A stretch of 35,876 nucleotides of DNA from Sedimenticola sp. (GTDB lineage: Bacteria; Pseudomonadota; Gammaproteobacteria; Chromatiales; Chromatiaceae): contig JALSRN010000080.1 of assembly GCA_026984735.1 (NCBI GenBank), positions 1 to 35,876 on the forward strand, in the 5' to 3' direction. Positions 19,990 through 33,719 of this stretch are shown here, in pieces. Position 1 is the stretch's first letter. Each line of letters begins with the position of its first letter. Both the position numbers and the translations under genes were made by a program. Below the pieces are notes generated by a model. It did no database searches and was not told the origin of the DNA. It saw nothing but the letters and a program-made list of their open reading frames with translations.

Positions 19990-22329
<2,340 letters not shown>

Positions 22330-22330
22330 A

Positions 22331-22336
22331 AGGAGG
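22331..22336 (+). promoter_or_regulatory. Strong ribosome-binding site of the DUF4139 gene
   Basis: AGGAGG lies 9 nt before the ATG at 22346 and settles the start over the upstream in-frame codons that overlap the GlcD-type gene. Confidence 0.75.
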
Positions 22337-22345
22337 AAAAGACCC

Positions 22346-23764
22346 ATGCGCGACTCGATCAAGATTCTGTGGCTGGGACTGCTGTTGCCCATGGTCGTCG
22401 TGGCGGCCGAGGTGGGCAGCGAGCCGTCCGACCGCACCGCTCTTTCGCTCACCATCTACAACCAGGATCTGGCGCTCATCCGGGAACAGCGAAAAATCCA
22501 TCTTCCGGCAGGGGTGACCGACCTCGCCCTGCGCGGAGTGAGCGGGCGCATGCAGCCGGAGACCGCGCTGGTGCGGCCGGCCGACGGCAAGGGCGGCTTC
22601 GAGGTGCTGGAACAGAACTTCAACTACGATCTGCTCACGCCGGCCAAGCTGCTGGAGAAGTATGTGGGCCGGGAGATCCGTATCCGCCGCACCAACCCGG
22701 CCACCGGGGAAGAGCGGGTGGAGCGCGCCAAGGTGCTGAGCACCGAAGGAGGGCTGGTAGTTCGCATCGGCGACCGCATCGAGACCAATCCGGGCGGCAG
22801 CCTGCTCTTCGACGGCATTCCCGCGAATCTCAGGGAGCAGCCCACGCTGGTGACCCGCCTGAAGAACGAAAAAGCGGGCAACCGCCTGCTGGCGCTGAGC
22901 TATCTCAGCGGCGGCCTCTCCTGGAAAGCGGACTACGTGGCCCGCCTCGACGAAAGCGAGCAGCGCATGGACCTCACCGGCTGGGTCACTCTCGACAACC
23001 GATCGGGCGCCTCTTACCGCGACGCCCGCCTGCAGCTGGTGGCGGGCGACCTCCATCGCGTGCGCTCCGCCCCCTCTCCCCGCATGCTCGAGCGGATGGC
23101 AGTGGCCAGCCCCGCCGCGGCGATGCGGGAGGAGAAGCTCTTCGCCTACCATCTTTACACGCTGCCGCGCAAAACGGACATCCTGGACCGCCAGACCAAG
23201 CAGGTGGCCCTTCTCGAAAGCCGGCGGCTGCGCGTCGAAAAGGAGTTGGTGCTCGCCGGAGGCGGAGCCCCCTACCGCTATCCGAGCGCGGCGGAGAGCC
23301 GACTGCCGGTGGTGGTGTGGATCGGCTTCCGCAACACCAAGGCCAACCATCTGGGCCTGCCGCTGCCGGCGGGGGTGGTGCGGGTCTACAAGAGCGATCG
23401 GCGCGGCGCCGCCCAGTTCATCGGCGAAGACCGCATCTCCCACACTCCCCGCGACGAGCGGGTGCGTCTGAAGCTGGGCAACGCCTTCGACGTCACCGCC
23501 ACCCGGCTGCAGACGGAGTGGCAGAAGAGACCCGCCGCTTCGCCCTTCAAACACGCGGCCCTGAGCAGCTTCCGCATCCGTCTGCACAACGCCGGAGAAC
23601 GCGCGGCGACGGTGACGGTTCGCGAGTCGATTCCCGGCGACTGGAAGATCGTCCGCGAGAACCTCCCCCACGAGAAGAAAGCCGCCCATCGGCTCGAGTG
23701 GCGGGTGGAGGTGCCGCCCCGCAAGCGGGCCACGCTGGAGTACAGCGTGCTGGTGCGCTGGTAG
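22346..23764 (+). CDS. DUF4139 domain protein, secreted
   Basis: 472 residues. An N-terminal signal segment (MRDSIKILWLGLLLPMVVVA) is followed by a beta-rich protein whose opening LTIYNQDLALIREQRKIHLP and later LSYLSGGLSWKADYVARLDE and LTGWVTLDNRSGASYRDARL match the DUF4139 family (periplasmic proteins of unknown function). The C-terminal part reads FRIRLHNAGERAATVTVRES, a domain like those that bind at surfaces. No catalytic motif is recognised. It is separated from the preceding gene by 16 bp and could be on the same transcript. The C-terminal end is EYSVLVRW. Function unknown; cell-envelope role is only a guess from the export signal. Confidence 0.85.
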   Translation: MRDSIKILWLGLLLPMVVVAAEVGSEPSDRTALSLTIYNQDLALIREQRKIHLPAGVTDLALRGVSGRMQPETALVRPADGKGGFEVLEQNFNYDLLTPAKLLEKYVGREIRIRRTNPATGEERVERAKVLSTEGGLVVRIGDRIETNPGGSLLFDGIPANLREQPTLVTRLKNEKAGNRLLALSYLSGGLSWKADYVARLDESEQRMDLTGWVTLDNRSGASYRDARLQLVAGDLHRVRSAPSPRMLERMAVASPAAAMREEKLFAYHLYTLPRKTDILDRQTKQVALLESRRLRVEKELVLAGGGAPYRYPSAAESRLPVVVWIGFRNTKANHLGLPLPAGVVRVYKSDRRGAAQFIGEDRISHTPRDERVRLKLGNAFDVTATRLQTEWQKRPAASPFKHAALSSFRIRLHNAGERAATVTVRESIPGDWKIVRENLPHEKKAAHRLEWRVEVPPRKRATLEYSVLVRW

Positions 23765-23904
23765 TCCGTTCCTGCGCGAAAGGGGCCGGCGCGATCTCCA
23801 AGGGAAGAATCGACACTCGAAATGCGACGGCACGCCGGTAAAGGAGCGGCCCATCCTGCCGATCCTCCAATGTAATCCAGCGACCCATTTTTGAGAAACC
23901 AGCC

Positions 23905-25353
23905 ATGAGAAACCGAACGACCCTTCCCTCTCCAACCTCGTTCCGAGCGGCCGTGATCCTCTTCTCGGCCTTGCTGCCCGGTTCCTCTTTCGCCGGGGAG
24001 GGAGCGCGAGACCTCACCGCCCACTGGGCCGGTTTTCTCTCCCTGGCCCTGTTCGGCATCGCCTATCTGCTGGTGATGGCCGAAGAGTTCACCCATCTGC
24101 GCAAGTCCAAGCCGGTGGTGCTGGCGGCCGGGATCATCTGGGCGGTGATCGCCGGGGTCTACCGGCAGCAGGGGATGGACCACCTGGTGGCGGAGGCGGT
24201 GCGCCACAACCTGCTGGAGTACGCCGAACTGCTGCTCTTCCTGCTGGTGGCCATGACCTACATCAACGCCATGGACGAACGCCGGGTCTTCGAAGTGCTG
24301 CGCGTCTGGTTGGTACGCAGGGGACTGGGATTCCGCTCTCTGTTCTGGATCACCGGGCTGCTCGCCTTCTTCATCTCGCCGGTGGCGGACAACCTCACCA
24401 CCGCGTTGCTCATGTGCGCCGTGGTCCTGGCGGTGGGGGGCGACAACAACCGTTTCGTTCTGCTCTCCTGCATCAACATCGTGGTGGCGGCCAACGCCGG
24501 GGGCGCCTTCAGCCCTTTCGGCGACATCACCACCCTGATGGTCTGGCAGAAAGAGATCGAGACGCCCCAGGGCGCCGTCGATTTCTGGTCCTTCTTCCAC
24601 CTCTTCCTGCCCGCTCTGGCCAACTGGCTGGTTCCGGCCGCGATCCTCTCCTTGAAGATTCCCGCGAAACGACCCGACCCCCTGGAAGAGAAGATCGCTC
24701 TGCTTCGCGGCGCCCGGCGCATCATCCTGCTCTTTCTGCTCACCATCGCCACCGCCGTGGCCTTCCACCACTTTCTCGGCCTGCCGCCGGTGATCGGCAT
24801 GCTCACCGGGCTGGCCTATCTGCAGTTCTTCGGCTTCTATCTGAAGAAGAGCGCCGTTCCCGGAGAGCAGCGGCAGACCCTCACCGACGCCGGCTTCATG
24901 GGCGATCCGGTCGCTTTCGACATCTTCAAGAACGTGGCCCATGCCGAATGGGACACCCTGCTCTTCTTCTACGGCGTGGTCCTCTGCGTGGGCGGGCTGG
25001 GTTTCCTCGGCTATCTCACCCTCGCTTCCGAGGCGCTCTACGCGGGCTGGAACCCGACCTACGCCAACGTCACCGTGGGGCTGCTTTCGGCCATCGTGGA
25101 CAACATTCCCGTGGTCTTCGCGGTGCTGAGCATGATGCCCGACATGTCGCTGGGCCAGTGGCTGCTGGTCACCCTCACCGCCGGCGTGGGGGGGTCGCTG
25201 CTTTCCATCGGCTCGGCCGCCGGGGTGGCCCTCATGGGGCAGGCGCGCGGGCGATACACCTTTTTCGGACATCTGAAATGGGCGCCGGTGATCGCCCTCG
25301 GCTACGCCGCCAGCATTCTCCTCCATCTTTGGCTCAACAAGGCACTCTTCTGA
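23905..25353 (+). CDS. nhaD: NhaD-type sodium/proton antiporter
   Basis: 482 residues with an N-terminal hydrophobic signal-like segment (AVILFSALLPGSSFA) and about 11-12 further membrane helices; member of the ion transporter (IT) superfamily. It exchanges cytoplasmic Na+ (or Li+) for external protons and is common in marine and halophilic bacteria. Diagnostic stretches: FFISPVADNLTTALLMCAVV, CINIVVAANAGGAFSPFGDI and GLLSAIVDNIPVVFAVLSMM, the last two with the paired asparagine/aspartate residues of the NhaD family. Start ATG 23905 follows a weak ribosome site. A 140-bp gap upstream holds a weak TGTAAT -10-like hexamer and no hairpin. Followed after 228 bp by the phosphoribulokinase gene. 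Confidence 0.92.
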   Translation: MRNRTTLPSPTSFRAAVILFSALLPGSSFAGEGARDLTAHWAGFLSLALFGIAYLLVMAEEFTHLRKSKPVVLAAGIIWAVIAGVYRQQGMDHLVAEAVRHNLLEYAELLLFLLVAMTYINAMDERRVFEVLRVWLVRRGLGFRSLFWITGLLAFFISPVADNLTTALLMCAVVLAVGGDNNRFVLLSCINIVVAANAGGAFSPFGDITTLMVWQKEIETPQGAVDFWSFFHLFLPALANWLVPAAILSLKIPAKRPDPLEEKIALLRGARRIILLFLLTIATAVAFHHFLGLPPVIGMLTGLAYLQFFGFYLKKSAVPGEQRQTLTDAGFMGDPVAFDIFKNVAHAEWDTLLFFYGVVLCVGGLGFLGYLTLASEALYAGWNPTYANVTVGLLSAIVDNIPVVFAVLSMMPDMSLGQWLLVTLTAGVGGSLLSIGSAAGVALMGQARGRYTFFGHLKWAPVIALGYAASILLHLWLNKALF

Positions 25354-25408
25354 CGGCGCGGAAGCGAAGGAGCCACCGCAGGAATCGTTTCCATACGCCC
25401 CCGAACCG

Positions 25409-25431
25409 GCCCATCCCCCGCGGGGATGGGC
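25409..25431. promoter_or_regulatory. Strong palindrome / hairpin upstream of phosphoribulokinase
   Basis: GCCCATCCCC-CGC-GGGGATGGGC is a perfect 10-bp inverted repeat with a 3-nt loop. It lies 55 bp after the nhaD stop and directly upstream of an extended -10 (25434-25442), where the -35 region would be. There is no T-run after it, so it is either a poor terminator for nhaD or an operator for the kinase promoter. Confidence 0.6.
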
Positions 25432-25433
25432 TG

Positions 25434-25442
25434 TGGTATAGT
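25434..25442 (+). promoter_or_regulatory. Extended -10 promoter for phosphoribulokinase
   Basis: TGGTATAGT fits TGnTATAnT. Transcription would start near 25449, giving a leader of about 130 nt before the ATG at 25582. The palindrome at 25409-25431 occupies the place of the -35. Prediction by eye. Confidence 0.45.
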
Positions 25443-25581
25443 GTTTTCGATGGGTCCACAGTCAAGCGGCTTGTCCCTGGAGGGATGAACTCGTCGAGCC
25501 CGGTTCCTGGACGGCGGCATCCGGCCAGGCCGTTCGCCTGTTGATCCATTTTTTCGAAACGAAATCCGGGAGGCCCACTCC

Positions 25582-26454
25582 ATGTCCAAGAAACACCCCA
25601 TCGTCGTGGTCACCGGCTCCTCCGGTGCCGGCACCACCACCGTCAAACGCGCCTTCGAACACATCTTCCTGCGGGAAGGCATCAAAGCCGCCATCATCGA
25701 AGGCGACAGCTTCCACCGCTACGACCGTGCGGAGATGAAAGTGAAGATGGCCGAAGAGGGGCTGAGCCACTTCGGCCCGGAGGCCAACCGCTTCGACAAG
25801 CTGGAGGAGCTGTTCAGGACCTATGGGGAGACGGGCACCGGCCAGAAGCGTTACTACTTGCACAGCCAGGAGGAGGCGGACGAACACAACGCCCGGCTCG
25901 GCACCGACAAGAAACCGGGCGAATTCACTCCGTGGGAGGAGATCCCGGAGGGGACCGACCTGCTCTTCTACGAGGGGCTGCACGGCATGGTGGTCACCGA
26001 CGAGAACAACGTGGCCCAACACGTGGATCTGGGCGTGGGCGTGGTGCCCATCGTCAACCTGGAGTGGATCCAGAAGATCCACCGCGACAGCAAGGAGCGG
26101 GGCTATTCCGCCGAAGCCATCGTGGACACCATCCTGCGGCGCATGCCCGACTACATCAAGCACATCACGCCGCAATTCTCCCGCACCGACATCAACTTCC
26201 AGCGGGTGGCCACGGTGGACACCTCCAACCCCTTCATCGCCCGCGACATCCCCACTCCCGACGAGAGCTTCGTGGTGATCCGATTCGCCGATCCGGAGAA
26301 GTTCGGCATCGACTTCCCCTACCTACTCAACATGATCCCCAACTCCTTCATGTCGCGGCGCAACACCATCGTGGTGCCCGGCGGCAAGATGGGATTCGCC
26401 ATGGAGATCATCCTCGGTCCCATCATCGACGACATGATGGCCAACCGCGGCTGA
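25582..26454 (+). CDS. prkB: Phosphoribulokinase, class I
   Basis: 290 residues, the standard length of the proteobacterial class I enzyme (also called CbbP). It makes ribulose 1,5-bisphosphate from ribulose 5-phosphate and ATP, feeding Rubisco. P-loop GSSGAGTTT at residues 12-20 (class I lacks the Walker lysine). Catalytic-base Asp42 in EGDSFHRYDR with His45 and Arg49, all as in the Rhodobacter enzyme. Further blocks: RYYLHSQEEADEHNA, LLFYEGLHGMVVTD, LGVGVVPIVNLEWIQKIHRD, YIKHITPQFSRTDINFQRV. A good ribosome site (GGGAGG, 25568-25573) precedes the ATG. No Rubisco or carboxysome gene is nearby; the gene stands between two transporter genes, flanked by hairpins. Confidence 0.96.
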   Translation: MSKKHPIVVVTGSSGAGTTTVKRAFEHIFLREGIKAAIIEGDSFHRYDRAEMKVKMAEEGLSHFGPEANRFDKLEELFRTYGETGTGQKRYYLHSQEEADEHNARLGTDKKPGEFTPWEEIPEGTDLLFYEGLHGMVVTDENNVAQHVDLGVGVVPIVNLEWIQKIHRDSKERGYSAEAIVDTILRRMPDYIKHITPQFSRTDINFQRVATVDTSNPFIARDIPTPDESFVVIRFADPEKFGIDFPYLLNMIPNSFMSRRNTIVVPGGKMGFAMEIILGPIIDDMMANRG

Positions 26455-26463
26455 TTCCGGCCG

Positions 26464-26486
26464 ACCGGGGGCAGCTTGCCCCCGGT
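26464..26486. terminator. Strong hairpin after phosphoribulokinase
   Basis: ACCGGGGGCA-GCT-TGCCCCCGGT is a perfect 10-bp inverted repeat with a 3-nt loop, 9 bp past the kinase stop codon. It lacks the T-run of an intrinsic terminator, so it could end most transcripts, be a Rho-associated 3' end or stabilise the kinase mRNA. Confidence 0.55.
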
Positions 26487-26577
26487 GCAAGGCCGCCCGC
26501 TCCGCCGCCTTTCAGTTACCTTTTGCCGGCTGTTTCGCGGCGGAAAACTTCTTCCCCACTTTGGAGAGAGACCGCCC

Positions 26578-27930
26578 ATGGAGACCGTTGCCACCCATCT
26601 GACCTGGAACACCGACATGGCCGCGTCCGGCATCATCCTGGCGCTCACTTTCGTCGGCATCTTCACCGAAGGAGTGCACGGTTTCCACCGCACCAAGTTC
26701 GCCATGCTGGGCGCGGCGCTGATGGTGATCGTCGGCCAGATCATGGGCTTCTACGGTCCCGAACAGGCGCTGGAGGCCATCGACTGGAACGTGATCTTCC
26801 TGCTCGGGGCCATGATGACCATCGTCGCCATCATGATTCCCACCGGCGGTTTCCAGGCCATCGCCTACCGCATCGCCGACATGAGCCGGGGCCGCCAGTT
26901 TCTGCTGCTGGCGATGCTCGGCACCGCGGTGACAGTAATCTCGCTGCTGTTGGACAACGTCACCACGGTGGTCATCTTCGGGCCGCTGATCGTCCTCATC
27001 GCCCAGGCGCTGAGAACCAATCCGGTTCCCTACCTCCTCGCCGCCGCGCTCCTCTCCGACACCGGAGGCGTGGCCACCCTGGTGGGCGATCCGCCCAACA
27101 TGATGATCGGCTCCGCCGCCCACATCAATTTCAACGCGTTCGTCATCCACATGGGCGGCGTGGTGACCGCGGCCTGGCTCGCCATCCTGGCCGCCCTCTG
27201 GTTCCTGTTCAAGCGCGACCTCTCCCACGAAACCCCGCCCATCGATTTCTCCGACCGCGAAGCGGTGGCCGACCCCTACACCTGGAAGGCTTCGCTGATG
27301 GTGCTGGGCGTGATGGTGGTCTTCTTCGTCATCCACCACACCCTCCACTGGGAGCCCTGGGTGGTGGCGGCGCTGGGGCTCACCGCGCTGGTCTTCATCG
27401 GCCGCAACGTGGACATGGACGCCACTTTCGAAGACATCGAGATGAGCCTGCTGATCTTCTTCCTGTCGCTCTTCGTGCTGGTGGGCGGAGTGGAACAGAG
27501 CCACTTTTTGCAGTATCTGGGGCAATTCATCGAGCCGTTCGTCGCCTCGGACCTGTTGCTGGCCTCCATCGTGCTCATGTGGGTGGCCGCCATCCTGTCG
27601 GCCATGATCGACAACATTCCCTTCACCGCGGCCATGATCCCCATCATTCTCGGCATGGAGCAACAGGGGATCAACGTCACTCCGCTCTGGTGGGGGCTGG
27701 CGGTGGGCGTCGGCATGGGTGGCAACGGCACCCATCTGGGCTCCACCGCCAACGTCTTCATCGTCACCCTGTCGGAACGGGTGGCCAAGGAGACCGGCAA
27801 CGCCGACTATCGCATCACTCCGGGGCTCTGGTTCCGCAAAGGAACGCCTGCCATGCTGGCCACCCTGGTGGTCTCCAGCCTGGCAATGTGGCTCTTCTTC
27901 GATTTCTTCAGCAAGCCCTTGGGAAGCTGA
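26578..27930 (+). CDS. ArsB/NhaD (IT superfamily, COG1055-like) permease
   Basis: 450 residues, about 11 membrane helices. The starting segment (MAASGIILALTFVGIFTE) begins the first helix. Family marks are LLLDNVTTVVIFGPLIVLIA and GGVATLVGDPPNMMIGSAAH in the first half and SAMIDNIPFTAAMIPIILGM plus GGNGTHLGSTANVFIVTLSE in the second, i.e. the two repeat signatures of ArsB/P-protein permeases. Relatives move arsenite, Na+ or organic anions; the substrate is unknown here. ATG 26578 (GGAG about 14 nt upstream) is chosen over a longer in-frame form whose extra residues are non-hydrophobic and basic. It directly follows prkB after 123 bp. Convergent with dxs with a 46-bp gap that has no clear terminator. 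Confidence 0.88.
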   Translation: METVATHLTWNTDMAASGIILALTFVGIFTEGVHGFHRTKFAMLGAALMVIVGQIMGFYGPEQALEAIDWNVIFLLGAMMTIVAIMIPTGGFQAIAYRIADMSRGRQFLLLAMLGTAVTVISLLLDNVTTVVIFGPLIVLIAQALRTNPVPYLLAAALLSDTGGVATLVGDPPNMMIGSAAHINFNAFVIHMGGVVTAAWLAILAALWFLFKRDLSHETPPIDFSDREAVADPYTWKASLMVLGVMVVFFVIHHTLHWEPWVVAALGLTALVFIGRNVDMDATFEDIEMSLLIFFLSLFVLVGGVEQSHFLQYLGQFIEPFVASDLLLASIVLMWVAAILSAMIDNIPFTAAMIPIILGMEQQGINVTPLWWGLAVGVGMGGNGTHLGSTANVFIVTLSERVAKETGNADYRITPGLWFRKGTPAMLATLVVSSLAMWLFFDFFSKPLGS

Positions 27931-27976
27931 GGTTCGACCGTCGATCCGAGGAAAAAACGGCTGGAGGCGGCAACCC

Positions 27977-29851
27977 TTACCCCACGGCGTCCAACCGCCG
28001 GCGGATGGAGGCCAGTAGCTCCGCCGCCGTGAGGCCGGCCTCTTCCAGCTGCTCGGCCTGGGTGCCCTGCTCGATGTAGCGATCGGGAAGGCCGAAATGG
28101 AGCCGGCGAACCTCGATGCCGAGCCGGTCGAGGCACTCCGACACCGCGGCTCCAGCGCCGCCCATGGCCGCGTTCTCCTCCACCGTCACCAGCAACTCGT
28201 GGTCCTCGGCCAGCTCGCGCACCAGCGTTTCGTCCAGCGGCTTGACGAAGCGCATGTTGGCCACCGTGGCGTCCAGCTCGCCGGCCACGGCTTCGCAGAG
28301 CGCCACCAGGCTGCCGAAACCGAGCAACGCCACCCGGCTGCCGCGCCGACGCACCTCGCCCTTGCCCCACGGAAGCGTCTCCAGCCCCTCCATCGGCACG
28401 GCGCCCGGCCCCTGCCCGCGGGGATAGCGGACCAGCGCGGGGCCTTCGTGCTCCCAGGCGGTCTGCAGCAGCGCCCGGCACTCCGCCTCGTCGGCGGGCG
28501 CCAGCACCGCCATGTTGGGAATGCAGCGGGCGTAGCTCAGATCGAAGGCGCCGGCATGGGTCGGGCCGTCCCCCCCCACCAGGCCGGCGCGGTCCACCGC
28601 GAAGGTGACGTCGAGATTCTGCAGAGCCACATCGTGGATCAGCTGGTCGTAGGCGCGCTGCAGAAAGGTGGAGTAGATGGCCACCACCGGCTTGAGCCCG
28701 TCGCAGGCCATGCCCGCCGCCAGGGTCACCGCATGCTGCTCGGCGATCCCCACGTCGAAATAGCGGTCGGGATGCTCCTTCGAGAAGCGCACCAGGCCCG
28801 ACCCTTCACACATGGCGGGCGTGATGGCCACCAGCCGCGGATCCTTTTCGGCAGCGTCGCAGACCCAGTCGGAGAAGACCTGTGTGTAGCTGACGCCCTC
28901 GCCGCCACCCAGCGCCTCGCCGGTCTCCGGGTCGAACGGCTTGACGCCGTGGTAGGAGCAGGGATCCCCCTCGGCCGGCGGGAAACCCTTGCCCTTGCGG
29001 GTCACCACGTGGAGAAAGCGGGGTCCGTTCATCCGCTTCATGTTCTCCAGGGTCTGCACCAGCATGGGCAGATCGTGGCCATCGATGGGGCCGATGTAGT
29101 TGAACCCCAGCTCTTCGAAAAGGGTGCCGGGCATGAGCATCCCTTTCATGTGCTCCTCCCAGCGATCCATCAGGTCGCGCACGCCGGGCACCACCCCCAG
29201 CACCTGTTTGCTCCCCTCCCGGACGCGGTTGTAGAAGCGGCTGGAGAGCACCCGCGCCAGATAGTTGCTCACCGCGCCCACGGGCCGGGAGATGGACATG
29301 TCGTTGTCGTTGAGCACCACCAGCAGGTCCATGTCCAAGGCGCCGGCGTGGTTGAGCGCCTCGAAGGCCATGCCGGCGGAGAGGGCGCCGTCGCCGATCA
29401 CGGCGATGTGCTCGCGCCGGATCCCTTCCAGACGGGCGGCCACGGCCATGCCCAGGGCGGCGCCGATGGAGGTGCTGGAGTGACCGGCACCGAAGGCGTC
29501 GTATTCCGATTCGTCGCAGCGCAGAAAGCCGGAGAGCCCTCCCTTCTGCCGCAGGGTCTCCATGCGGTGGCGGCGACCGGTGAGGATCTTGTGCGGATAG
29601 GCCTGATGCCCCACGTCCCACACCAGCCGGTCCCGCGGGGTGTCGAAGACGTAGTGGAGCGCGATGGTCAGCTCCACCACTCCCAGCCCCGCCGCCAGGT
29701 GGCCGCCGGTGCGCGCGACCACCTCCACCAGATACTCCCTCAGCTCCTGCGCCAATGCCGGCAGCTTCTCCAGCGGCAAACGGCGCAGGTCGTCGGGATG
29801 GTCCACCTGTTCCAGCAGTGGATAGAGCGGCTGCTCGGAGGAAGGGGGCAT
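27977..29851 (-). CDS. dxs: 1-deoxy-D-xylulose-5-phosphate synthase
   Basis: 624 residues, usual length. First step of the MEP isoprenoid pathway, condensing pyruvate and glyceraldehyde 3-phosphate with thiamine diphosphate (TPP). TPP-binding motif [18 protein letters not shown] with the following NDNDMSIS (about 150-185). Early block [20 protein letters not shown] and [12 protein letters not shown]. Catalytic glutamate in [17 protein letters not shown] (about 370). Phosphate-binding [18 protein letters not shown] and the C-terminal transketolase domain to the end ([10 protein letters not shown]). The ATG at 29851 is 41 bp from the divergent SpoU-type start at 29893. No other MEP gene is next to it. 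Confidence 0.96.
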
Positions 29852-32263: not shown

Positions 32264-32428
32264 CAGGCCGTTGAAAAACGTTGTTTTTCGACGGCCTGTG
32301 AGCGGTACAGGGAGGTGCCGCCATTTTCGATGACTGCAAGTCATTGAAAATGAAGGAACCAGGAAATCGCATTTTCCGGTTCCGGGGTTGAAAAAGACCA
32401 TGGAAGGACTTTTTCAACAGCCTGTTAG
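32260..32428. repeat. 161-bp MITE-like structured element with TTAG direct repeats
   Basis: The element spans 32264-32424. Its ends, CAGGCCGTTGAAAAA on the left and TTTTTCAACAGCCTG on the right, form an inverted repeat with one mismatch in 15 bp. TTAG lies directly outside both ends (32260-32263 and 32425-32428), fitting a 4-bp target duplication. Inside are four hairpins: 32264-32298 (15-bp arms, one wobble, 5-nt loop), 32322-32352 (14-bp arms, one wobble, 3-nt loop), 32355-32383 (GGAACC/GGTTCC stem with a bulged A) and 32387-32418 (10-bp perfect arms). It has no coding capacity. As it lies between convergent genes it may also serve as a two-way terminator. A non-autonomous IS derivative is the best explanation; the parent IS is not known. 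Confidence 0.65.
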
Positions 32429-32468
32429 AGACCGTTTGGAAGGGGCGGCGGCGCCGGAGTCGCTCCCG

Positions 32469-33719
32469 TCAAGGCACCACCTGGTCGATCACCAGCTCCA
32501 CCGGCTTGCCGGCGCCCACCTGCACCAGCTTTTCGGCGCTCTGGAAATCGCCGCTCGCCGCCATGGGCTGGCCGCTGCGCGCGATCCGGGCGGCGATCTT
32601 GAGCTGTTTGTAGTCCTTGAGGCTGCCGCCGCGGATGAGGTTGCCGTCGGTGAGCTCCACCTGGGCCGGAAGCTGGCCCGCGGTGAGACGAACGGCCGCC
32701 ACCGGCATGGGCGGGCCGCTGGGCGCTTTAGCGAAGATGAAGAGGGGTTCGCCCGGTTTCACCTTGTCGCGCAGCTTCGGCGACAGGGTGACCTGCAAGC
32801 GGATGCCGGAAGAGGCGGCCTCGAGATCCACCGCGGAGCCCGGATCCTCCACCTGAAGGCCGGCGGCGGCGGCCGCTTGCTTTGCCTGGGCGATGAGCCC
32901 GCGCAGCTCCCGCACATAGTCCGGATTGTCGGCCAGCCCCGCCTCGGCCTGACGCCAGTAGTAGATGGCGTTCTGATAGTCGCCCGTCTCGCTGGCGCCC
33001 TTGCCCGCCAGCCAGAGCGCGGTGGAGTCTTCCGGCGCCTTCTCCAGCGCCTTCTTCACCAGTTCGTAGGGCTTGCCCCGCATGCGCCCTCCCTGGGTCA
33101 TGGCCAGGGCGTCGGCCCAGGCGACGAGCGCCTGCGGATGCTCGTCGGTCAGCTTGGCCACCTTCTCGAAAGTCTTCGCCGCCTCCGAAAAGCGCCGCTC
33201 GCTGGAATAGACGCGCCCCAGCATGAACCAGGCCTCGGCGTCGTCGGGCTTCTCCTTCACCCGCTTTTCCAGCGTCTGCACGATCTCCTCCAGGGTGGGC
33301 GCCTCGCCGCCGGCCCGCATCCTGGCGTGCAGCGCCTCCACCTCGGCCACCGCCCGGTCGCTCGACAACTGCGGCGAGCCGAGCCACCCGTAGAGCCCCA
33401 GGCTGGCGGCCGGCAGCAGAACGGCGAGAAAAACCACGCCGGAGCGGCGTCCGAACGCGGTGACCGAGGCGCGCTGTTCCACCACCCGGGTGTCTTCCAA
33501 CAGCTCCTGCTCCAGCTCCTCCCTGGCCTGCTGGAACGCCTGTTCGTCCAGGGTGCCGGCTTTGAAGTCGGCCTCCAGCTCCTTGAGCTTCTGCCGTGCC
33601 ACCTGGACGTTGTTCTCGCGCACCTCATCCACGATCTCGCCCCGCTGGCGCAGCAGCGACCAGAGCAGAACGCCCACCACCAGCGCCAGCAGCAGGGCCA
33701 CCAGGATCCAAAAGGTCAT
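32469..33719 (-). CDS. ccmI: Cytochrome c maturation protein CcmI
   Basis: 416 residues. CcmI (CycH) brings apocytochrome c to the heme ligation complex. Two N-terminal membrane helices (residues 2-21 and about 94-112) flank a cytoplasmic coiled-coil segment (EVRENNVQVARQKLKELEAD). The periplasmic part is TPR-rich (LEKRVKEKPDDAEAWFMLGR, PQALVAWADALAMTQGGRMR), and the C-terminal domain is beta-rich (GIRLQVTLSPKLRDKVKPGE to the end). Overlaps ccmH by 4 nt. Last gene of the ccm operon here; ends 45 bp from the repeat element. Confidence 0.92.
   Translation of the reverse strand: MTFWILVALLLALVVGVLLWSLLRQRGEIVDEVRENNVQVARQKLKELEADFKAGTLDEQAFQQAREELEQELLEDTRVVEQRASVTAFGRRSGVVFLAVLLPAASLGLYGWLGSPQLSSDRAVAEVEALHARMRAGGEAPTLEEIVQTLEKRVKEKPDDAEAWFMLGRVYSSERRFSEAAKTFEKVAKLTDEHPQALVAWADALAMTQGGRMRGKPYELVKKALEKAPEDSTALWLAGKGASETGDYQNAIYYWRQAEAGLADNPDYVRELRGLIAQAKQAAAAAGLQVEDPGSAVDLEAASSGIRLQVTLSPKLRDKVKPGEPLFIFAKAPSGPPMPVAAVRLTAGQLPAQVELTDGNLIRGGSLKDYKQLKIAARIARSGQPMAASGDFQSAEKLVQVGAGKPVELVIDQVVP

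Follow-up and report, generated by a model that had tools for sequence, protein, structure and literature searches.

Genes for Na+ and anion transport are linked to the gene for phosphoribulokinase (PRK) in the sampled Gammaproteobacteria. The locus considered here lies in a stretch of 35,876 nt from Sedimenticola sp. (contig JALSRN010000080.1 of assembly GCA_026984735.1), which is called the window below and whose positions on the forward strand serve as coordinates. It carries, one after the other, genes for an NhaD-type Na+/H+ antiporter, for PRK and for a permease of the ion-transporter superfamily. As stated in the original prediction, the three open reading frames (ORFs) run in the same direction (+), and all of them are intact. 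We tentatively propose, as a reading that is quite possible but short of probable, that this locus provides the antiporter side of a supply of inorganic carbon that is driven by Na+ and linked to the Calvin cycle.

The link to PRK was established in a survey of the class. Among 369 searched genomes of Gammaproteobacteria, 210 gave a PRK match at 1e-100 or better, and 100 PRK loci were taken: 80 chosen among the matches listed and 20 from the family f1 (two of them from genome G137). PRK was called in 93 of these class loci, from 58 GTDB families (L162, L166, L174, L179, L186, L204 and L223 were left out). The set of named loci numbers 80, and the rank counts exclude two of them (L084 and L092) in which no PRK was called. 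Clusters in the named PRK loci and in loci taken earlier served as seeds for the transporter profiles; because some contigs occur in both locus sets (L093/L173, L080/L227), the motif counts given below contain some duplicates.

At the slot directly before PRK (rank -1), the class loci hold a SulP gene in 7/92 cases, an NhaD gene in 7/92 and, in 6/92, a gene that we call SLC13-type, whose product has TrkA_C domains. Together, these three families occupy the slot in 20 of the 92 loci and in 13 of the 58 GTDB families. By a hand estimate that assumes about 3,000 genes per genome, the number expected at one slot over 92 loci is about 0.2, the background being 125 matches to PF03600 over 32 genomes and 136 to PF00916 over 40 (split genes counted twice). 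The three families are found at rank -2 in 7/92 loci, at -3 in 4/90 and at -4 in 4/89, and at none of the ranks +1 to +8 of the class loci. It is this enrichment of slot -1, set against the expected number and the empty downstream ranks, that links Na+ and anion transport to PRK. Twelve of the 20 transporters at slot -1 are co-directional with PRK. When proteins with at least six predicted helices are counted regardless of family, they make up 21/92 at -1 versus 6/93 at +1 in the class loci (at most 11% elsewhere from -7 to +7) and 18/74 at -1 versus 7/76 at +1 in the named loci (17% at -2 and 13% at +4). Moreover, the slot is filled by differing families within a single GTDB family, namely SulP or SLC13-type in f107 and NhaD or SLC13-type in f151.

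Several kinds of transporter genes stand beside PRK in the relatives. An SLC13-type gene directly precedes it in Ectothiorhodospira haloalkaliphila, E. lacustris, E. shaposhnikovii and Thiorhodospira sibirica, and a SulP gene does so in E. mobilis. "SLC13-type" is our own label, the L070 protein scoring 111 on the DASS model, under the cut-off of 198.6; L120 and L242 do exceed the cut-off of the Pfam Na_sulph_symp model. For the two PRK-adjacent SulPs that were scanned (L080 and L099), BicA is the best model, with scores of 632 and 625 bits that are under its cut-off of 880 but far above those of the other models. A Chr-type transporter gene (assigned by Pfam) directly follows PRK in Candidatus Thioglobus (L103:97-2364), and a gene of the same cluster is found in another metagenome-assembled genome (MAG; L111:10001-12276). 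DabA and PRK are 2.1 kb apart in G052 and 3.6 kb apart in G137. NhaD lies between PRK and the DabA-containing cluster in G137, and the order in G052 is the DabA cluster, PRK, dxs, a LysR-like gene and RuBisCO. In a Thiodiazotropha MAG (L049:11083-12042), a gene for a SLAC1-type anion channel is present 210 bp after PRK.

SLC13-type and NhaD genes are frequent neighbours of each other. In the genome-wide PF03600 listing, where the two were told apart by size and score (with confirmation by profile in the fetched loci only), they lie within about 0.5 kb in 12/32 genomes; in 11 of these they are co-directional, with the SLC13-type gene first. In G065, a permease 76% identical to that of the window stands 12 bp behind the SLC13-type gene, at the place where NhaD often stands, which argues against the permease as the bicarbonate carrier. 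No NhaD is among the three PF03600 matches of G065, other antiporter families not having been searched. In G024, G078 and G112, an SLC13-type gene is followed by a SulP gene within 1-10 bp, like a two-gene unit (L238:6704-10439, L249:147-3882 and L250:3124-6753).

The host genome (2.44 Mb) has RuBisCO, cbbQ and a VWA protein. On its contig C30 (L242:3149-10749), the genes for a cbbO-like VWA protein, cbbQ and RuBisCO share a strand, and a LysR gene diverges from them; we read the RuBisCO as form II, the VWA protein as cbbO and the LysR gene as CbbR. An SLC13-type gene with TrkA_C domains is found 67 bp behind this LysR gene and completes the host's three PF03600 matches, the other two being NhaD and the permease at PRK. 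The single SulP match of the host (L236:7837-11055, also C30) is tail to tail, 3 bp apart, with the gene for biotin carboxylase, a bicarbonate-using enzyme. The host gave no DabA match (the carboxysome, DabA and RuBisCO searches cover a chosen set of genomes). The RuBisCO-side SLC13-type gene and the single SulP appear to be better bicarbonate candidates in the host than the permease.

We propose the following scheme. The data show the identity of the genes, their conservation, the enrichment of the transporter families before PRK, the NhaD-like motifs and the terminators, and from these we infer bicarbonate as the substrate, the coupling to Na+, the way in which the ions are exchanged and the part played by the permease. 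HCO3- would enter together with Na+ through a Na+-coupled anion carrier, for which the SLC13-type protein with TrkA_C domains or the single SulP is the most likely candidate. Conversion of HCO3- to CO2 for RuBisCO would then leave the cell with OH-. NhaD, and probably the permease as a second Asp-Asn antiporter, would export Na+ in exchange for H+, by which the Na+ cycle would be closed and the OH- neutralised. PRK would be their neighbour through a shared pathway and not through a three-gene operon. As a Na+/H+ antiporter would serve both Na+ export and OH- neutralisation, the occurrence of NhaD together with several kinds of carriers beside PRK would be explained. To our knowledge, inorganic-carbon uptake in autotrophs without carboxysomes has been little studied, and the repeated filling of the PRK-side slot by Na+ antiporters and anion carriers points to a few candidates, namely the SLC13-type protein with TrkA_C, the BicA-like SulP, NhaD and the permease. 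A wider generalisation would be that the PRK neighbourhoods of autotrophic Gammaproteobacteria mark a Na+-cycle carbon supply without carboxysomes, in which an SLC13-type/TrkA_C Na+/HCO3- symporter works with NhaD or a MamN-like permease returning H+ for Na+. We consider this generalisation unlikely as it stands; if true, it would represent an undescribed supply system and a new branch among bicarbonate carriers.

The permease itself is more likely an antiporter than a bicarbonate carrier, with exchange presumably carried out by its Asp-Asn residues; this is favoured by its NhaD-like motifs, by MamN as its nearest family and by its placement behind the SLC13-type gene in G065. Indeed, 17/17 aligned permeases keep LDNVTT, DNIPF (D126-N127 and D345-N346 in the window protein) and GDPPN. 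The NhaD proteins show DN[LM][TS]T in 33/33 full-length sequences and DN[IV]P in 29/33, with EN in the other four, and the SLC13-type proteins show DN in 0/20 and SN[VTI]GA in 20/20. In the hairpins, the Asp-Asn of the permease corresponds to Ser-Asn in VcINDY and to Gln/Ser-Asn in the SLC13-type proteins. Profile alignment of the permease, with high probability in both cases, covered 387 columns with NhaD and 185 with the SLC13-type, the TrkA_C insert of which may itself shorten the latter match. Among the NCBIfam models, MamN (NF040989) is the best named family, with 180 bits over nearly the whole model and under the cut-off of 500, and no NhaD model is among the matches at 0.001. The two ArsB models gave 84 bits (cut-off 457) and 65 bits (cut-off 415), both far under their cut-offs, so that an arsenite pump was rejected and the tie of the permease clade to arsenite that the original prediction had envisaged as an objection was not seen. 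A DASS-type symporter was rejected likewise, the score being 52 bits (cut-off 198.6) and both hairpins having Asp-Asn instead of Ser-Asn. The predicted structure has the ion-transporter fold (mean predicted local distance difference test, pLDDT, of 84), with ArsB 10tp as the nearest fold at a template modelling (TM) score of 0.81. Of the inorganic-carbon module first suggested, the part that had the permease move bicarbonate on a gradient set by NhaD has lost ground, whereas the module as such gains support from the enrichment of NhaD and of candidate carriers of dissolved inorganic carbon (DIC), SulP and SLC13-type, at slot -1, from Chr in Thioglobus and from the DabA clusters of two relatives.

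Relatives of the permease were found in other surroundings. In the family f1, the permease or a cousin is found next to PRK in three different settings, those of genus g1, of G132 and of G052. The order in G132 is SLC13-type, PRK, permease (reversed), a CBS protein, DUF945, dxs, a LysR-like gene and RuBisCO; two small ORFs also stand ahead of PRK there. In G137, a gene run that includes a PHO4-type phosphate transporter holds two permeases of the same subclade at a distance of two ORFs from each other (L121:7640-13823). Nine more distant relatives (L123-L131) each adjoin a gene of a CBS-domain cluster (c21 or c76, one member of each cluster having been scanned).

The arrangement is not restricted to this genome. 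The NhaD-PRK order is kept in 8/8 genus genomes seen, with the glcD-like and DUF4139 genes upstream and dxs beyond, and in 4/8 (this genome, G112, G024 and G078) the PRK-dxs interval holds the permease. A tree built from the four neighbours, joined, places G094 and G095 with this genome, and G021 and G090 with the remaining three permease carriers. Identity between this genome and the other carriers is 77-79% for the permease, 78% for dxs, 73-75% for NhaD, 69% for the glcD-like protein and 90-91% for PRK. Since the permease is found in that one interval in each of the two genus clades and has diverged as much as dxs, it has probably been kept since early in the genus; one old arrival followed by several losses would suit these data better than a recent transfer. 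Judged by eye, no clear pattern of complementarity was observed within the genus between the presence of the permease and that of other carriers. The host has another PRK-type gene, with 48% identity to that of the window (L116:9389-10351, minus strand; matches 32425-33351 on its own contig C57). It is convergent with a topoisomerase-like gene that we read as ParC, and the seven further genus genomes seen have it too, as do G129 and G033.

The individual genes are listed in Table 1. By its curated NhaD_1 score, the first gene of the three is a member of NhaD, for which Na+(Li+)/H+ exchange is predicted; a second NhaD model, TIGR00775, gave 434 bits against a cut-off of 577. The best solved relative of PRK is 1a7j (about 351-352 bits, aligned over residues 1-286), and this alignment shows that the P-loop and the FYEGLHG region, whose usual functional meaning we assume here, are retained. 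For the permease, the ATG at 26578 is the likely start, in preference to an upstream TTG of a longer ORF. The spacers measure 228 bp between NhaD and PRK and 123 bp between PRK and the permease.

The transcription signals do not favour a single operon. The element TGnTATAGT in the nhaD-PRK spacer is kept in 8/8 genus genomes seen, and this conservation suggests that PRK probably has its own promoter and starts its own transcript. A generic sigma-70 scan of 23700-28100 reported no promoter site, so the argument for this promoter is the conservation itself. A generic terminator scan of the same interval gave three matches, which is the chance level (2.9). After PRK, a strong T-tailed stem is found in 6/8 genus genomes (-16 to -28 kcal/mol); this genome has there a weak terminator-like candidate only (-9.2 kcal/mol), besides the hairpin without T-run of Table 1, and G094 has no terminator-like stem. 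Thus, the permease is probably located behind the place of a PRK terminator, and both the conserved upstream element of PRK and the terminators that follow the gene weaken the reading of NhaD, PRK and permease as one operon.

Table 1. Features of the PRK locus in the window, with the scores and motifs that identify them
Feature	Position	Strand	Evidence
FAD-linked oxidase, glcD-like; kept neighbour, no role in the module claimed	20941..22329	+	Pfam FAD_binding_4 and FAD-oxidase_C; TIGR00387 427 bits, under the cut-off of 568
DUF4139 protein; kept neighbour, ORF start uncertain	22268..23764	+	Pfam PF13598, 51.5 bits
NhaD-type Na+/H+ antiporter	23905..25353	+	NCBIfam NhaD_1 (NF038006) 636 bits, cut-off 80; DNLTT and DNIP motifs
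TGnTATAGT, extended -10-like element of the probable PRK promoter	25434..25442	+	kept in all 8 genus genomes seen
Phosphoribulokinase (PRK), proteobacterial type	25582..26454	+	NCBIfam NF011997 491 bits, cut-off 362; PF00485 231 bits
Perfect 10-pair hairpin after PRK, without T-run	26464..26486	+	-20.2 kcal/mol
Ion-transporter-superfamily permease, MamN/ArsB/NhaD-like, Asp-Asn in both hairpins	26578..27930	+	PF03600 (CitMHS) 258 bits
dxs, convergent; bounds the PRK-dxs interval occupied by the permease	27977..29851	-	TIGR00204 861 bits

The strongest rival explanation is that the neighbours of PRK serve salt and pH homeostasis in general, in marine or haloalkaline autotrophs, and are held there by inherited gene order without any link to carbon fixation. 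Such an origin would agree with the study of NhaD for salt and pH tolerance (PMC1552076, PMC5942162), with the conserved element before PRK and the terminator behind it, and with the patchy presence of the permease. We nevertheless consider it rather unlikely, as different families share the slot within f107 and within f151, as the enrichment is found upstream of PRK only and as BicA-like SulPs and DabA are among the neighbours.

Two other explanations concern the permease. It might carry another substrate (a metal, arsenite, sulfate or an organic anion) and have been inserted between PRK and dxs with no relation to carbon fixation, as homologues elsewhere adjoin CBS-domain proteins or stand near a PHO4-type phosphate transporter and as it lies beyond a PRK terminator in most of the genomes that carry it; the shared interval in both genus clades, the divergence close to that of dxs and the tandem with the SLC13-type gene in G065 make this improbable. 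The idea that the permease is itself the carrier of bicarbonate or another anion, driven by a Na+ gradient made by NhaD, appears to us the least probable. It does account for the position of the permease in a neighbourhood where relatives have SulP, SLC13-type or Chr carriers, for the three arrangements of the family f1 and for the good match of the predicted fold with Na+/anion carriers. Moreover, MamN, although described with homology to a Na+/H+ antiporter, was modelled on a dicarboxylate symporter, with, by that account, no convincing antiporter-based model (PMC3905215). However, the Asp-Asn pair in both hairpins as in NhaD, the low DASS score and the longer profile match with NhaD than with the SLC13-type (with the possible effect of the TrkA_C insert mentioned above) speak against such a carrier.

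Returning to the proposed Na+-driven carbon supply, several observations weigh against it. None of the three families is present at slot -1 in 72/92 loci, and the 20 loci that have one are not independent events, because gene order is partly inherited. The permease is not beside PRK in any of the 93 class loci counted, within the stretch taken, and four of the eight genus genomes (G094, G095, G021 and G090) have a PRK-dxs interval without it. In three of the four genomes that do carry it, a terminator-like stem separates it from PRK (-23.6 to -27.8 kcal/mol). Its predicted fold is as near to anion carriers as the superfamily would lead one to expect (TM 0.78 for NaS1 and AtDiT2.1, up to 0.75 for VcINDY), and since these are nearly as close as 10tp, the fold alone cannot tell an antiporter from an anion carrier. 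The substrate of these transporters is not readable from sequence, and the SLC13-type carriers could move sulfate instead. DabA was near PRK in 0/21 DabA-bearing class genomes (positions compared by eye), and DabA beside PRK was rejected as a general rule. The SLC13-type gene lies within 2 kb of RuBisCO in 2/29 genomes, so that this proximity was also rejected as a rule and is used here as a local observation. Finally, no carboxysome shell match was obtained in the searched genomes, including the host, and a classical concentrating mechanism is therefore not evident.

Cyanobacteria take up bicarbonate in a Na+-dependent manner through BicA and SbtA, alongside Na+/H+ antiporters. The supply proposed here would resemble that system in combining a Na+/HCO3- symporter with a need for Na+ export; it differs by its antiporter families and organisms and by its tie to PRK, which the cyanobacterial system is not known to have. 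Among known families, the permease shares both Asp-Asn motifs with NhaD (NF038006) and yet forms a separate branch. MamN is its nearest named family, but under the cut-off, and no magnetosome genes were seen nearby, none having been looked for. ArsB 10tp and VcINDY have the same predicted fold as the permease, but about 20% identity in structural alignment and different hairpin residues. For the carriers, a SulP beside a carbonic anhydrase gene has been argued to be a bicarbonate carrier (PMC6458275), and a Chr that does carry bicarbonate is cited in PMC10880623. The candidates listed above are directly testable by a published E. coli rescue assay, in which one SulP, two Sbt and a DAC of one organism rescued E. 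coli without carbonic anhydrase, and another SulP and a Chr, in the experiments described there, did not (PMC12628692). No report of the PRK-NhaD arrangement was found in the literature searched, most subscription journals being outside its reach. The closest known case is the co-location of DIC transporter and Calvin-cycle genes, the genes of the DIC toolkit being commonly found beside carboxysomal RuBisCO genes and sometimes beside others (PMC10880623, in the main text of which the words "phosphoribulokinase" and "SLC13" are absent). The likeness lies in the presence of transporters beside Calvin-cycle genes, here with BicA-like SulPs and DabA near PRK, whereas the anchor in the present loci is PRK and not RuBisCO or the carboxysome, PRK is often partnered by NhaD, and the carriers extend to the SLC13-type with TrkA_C.

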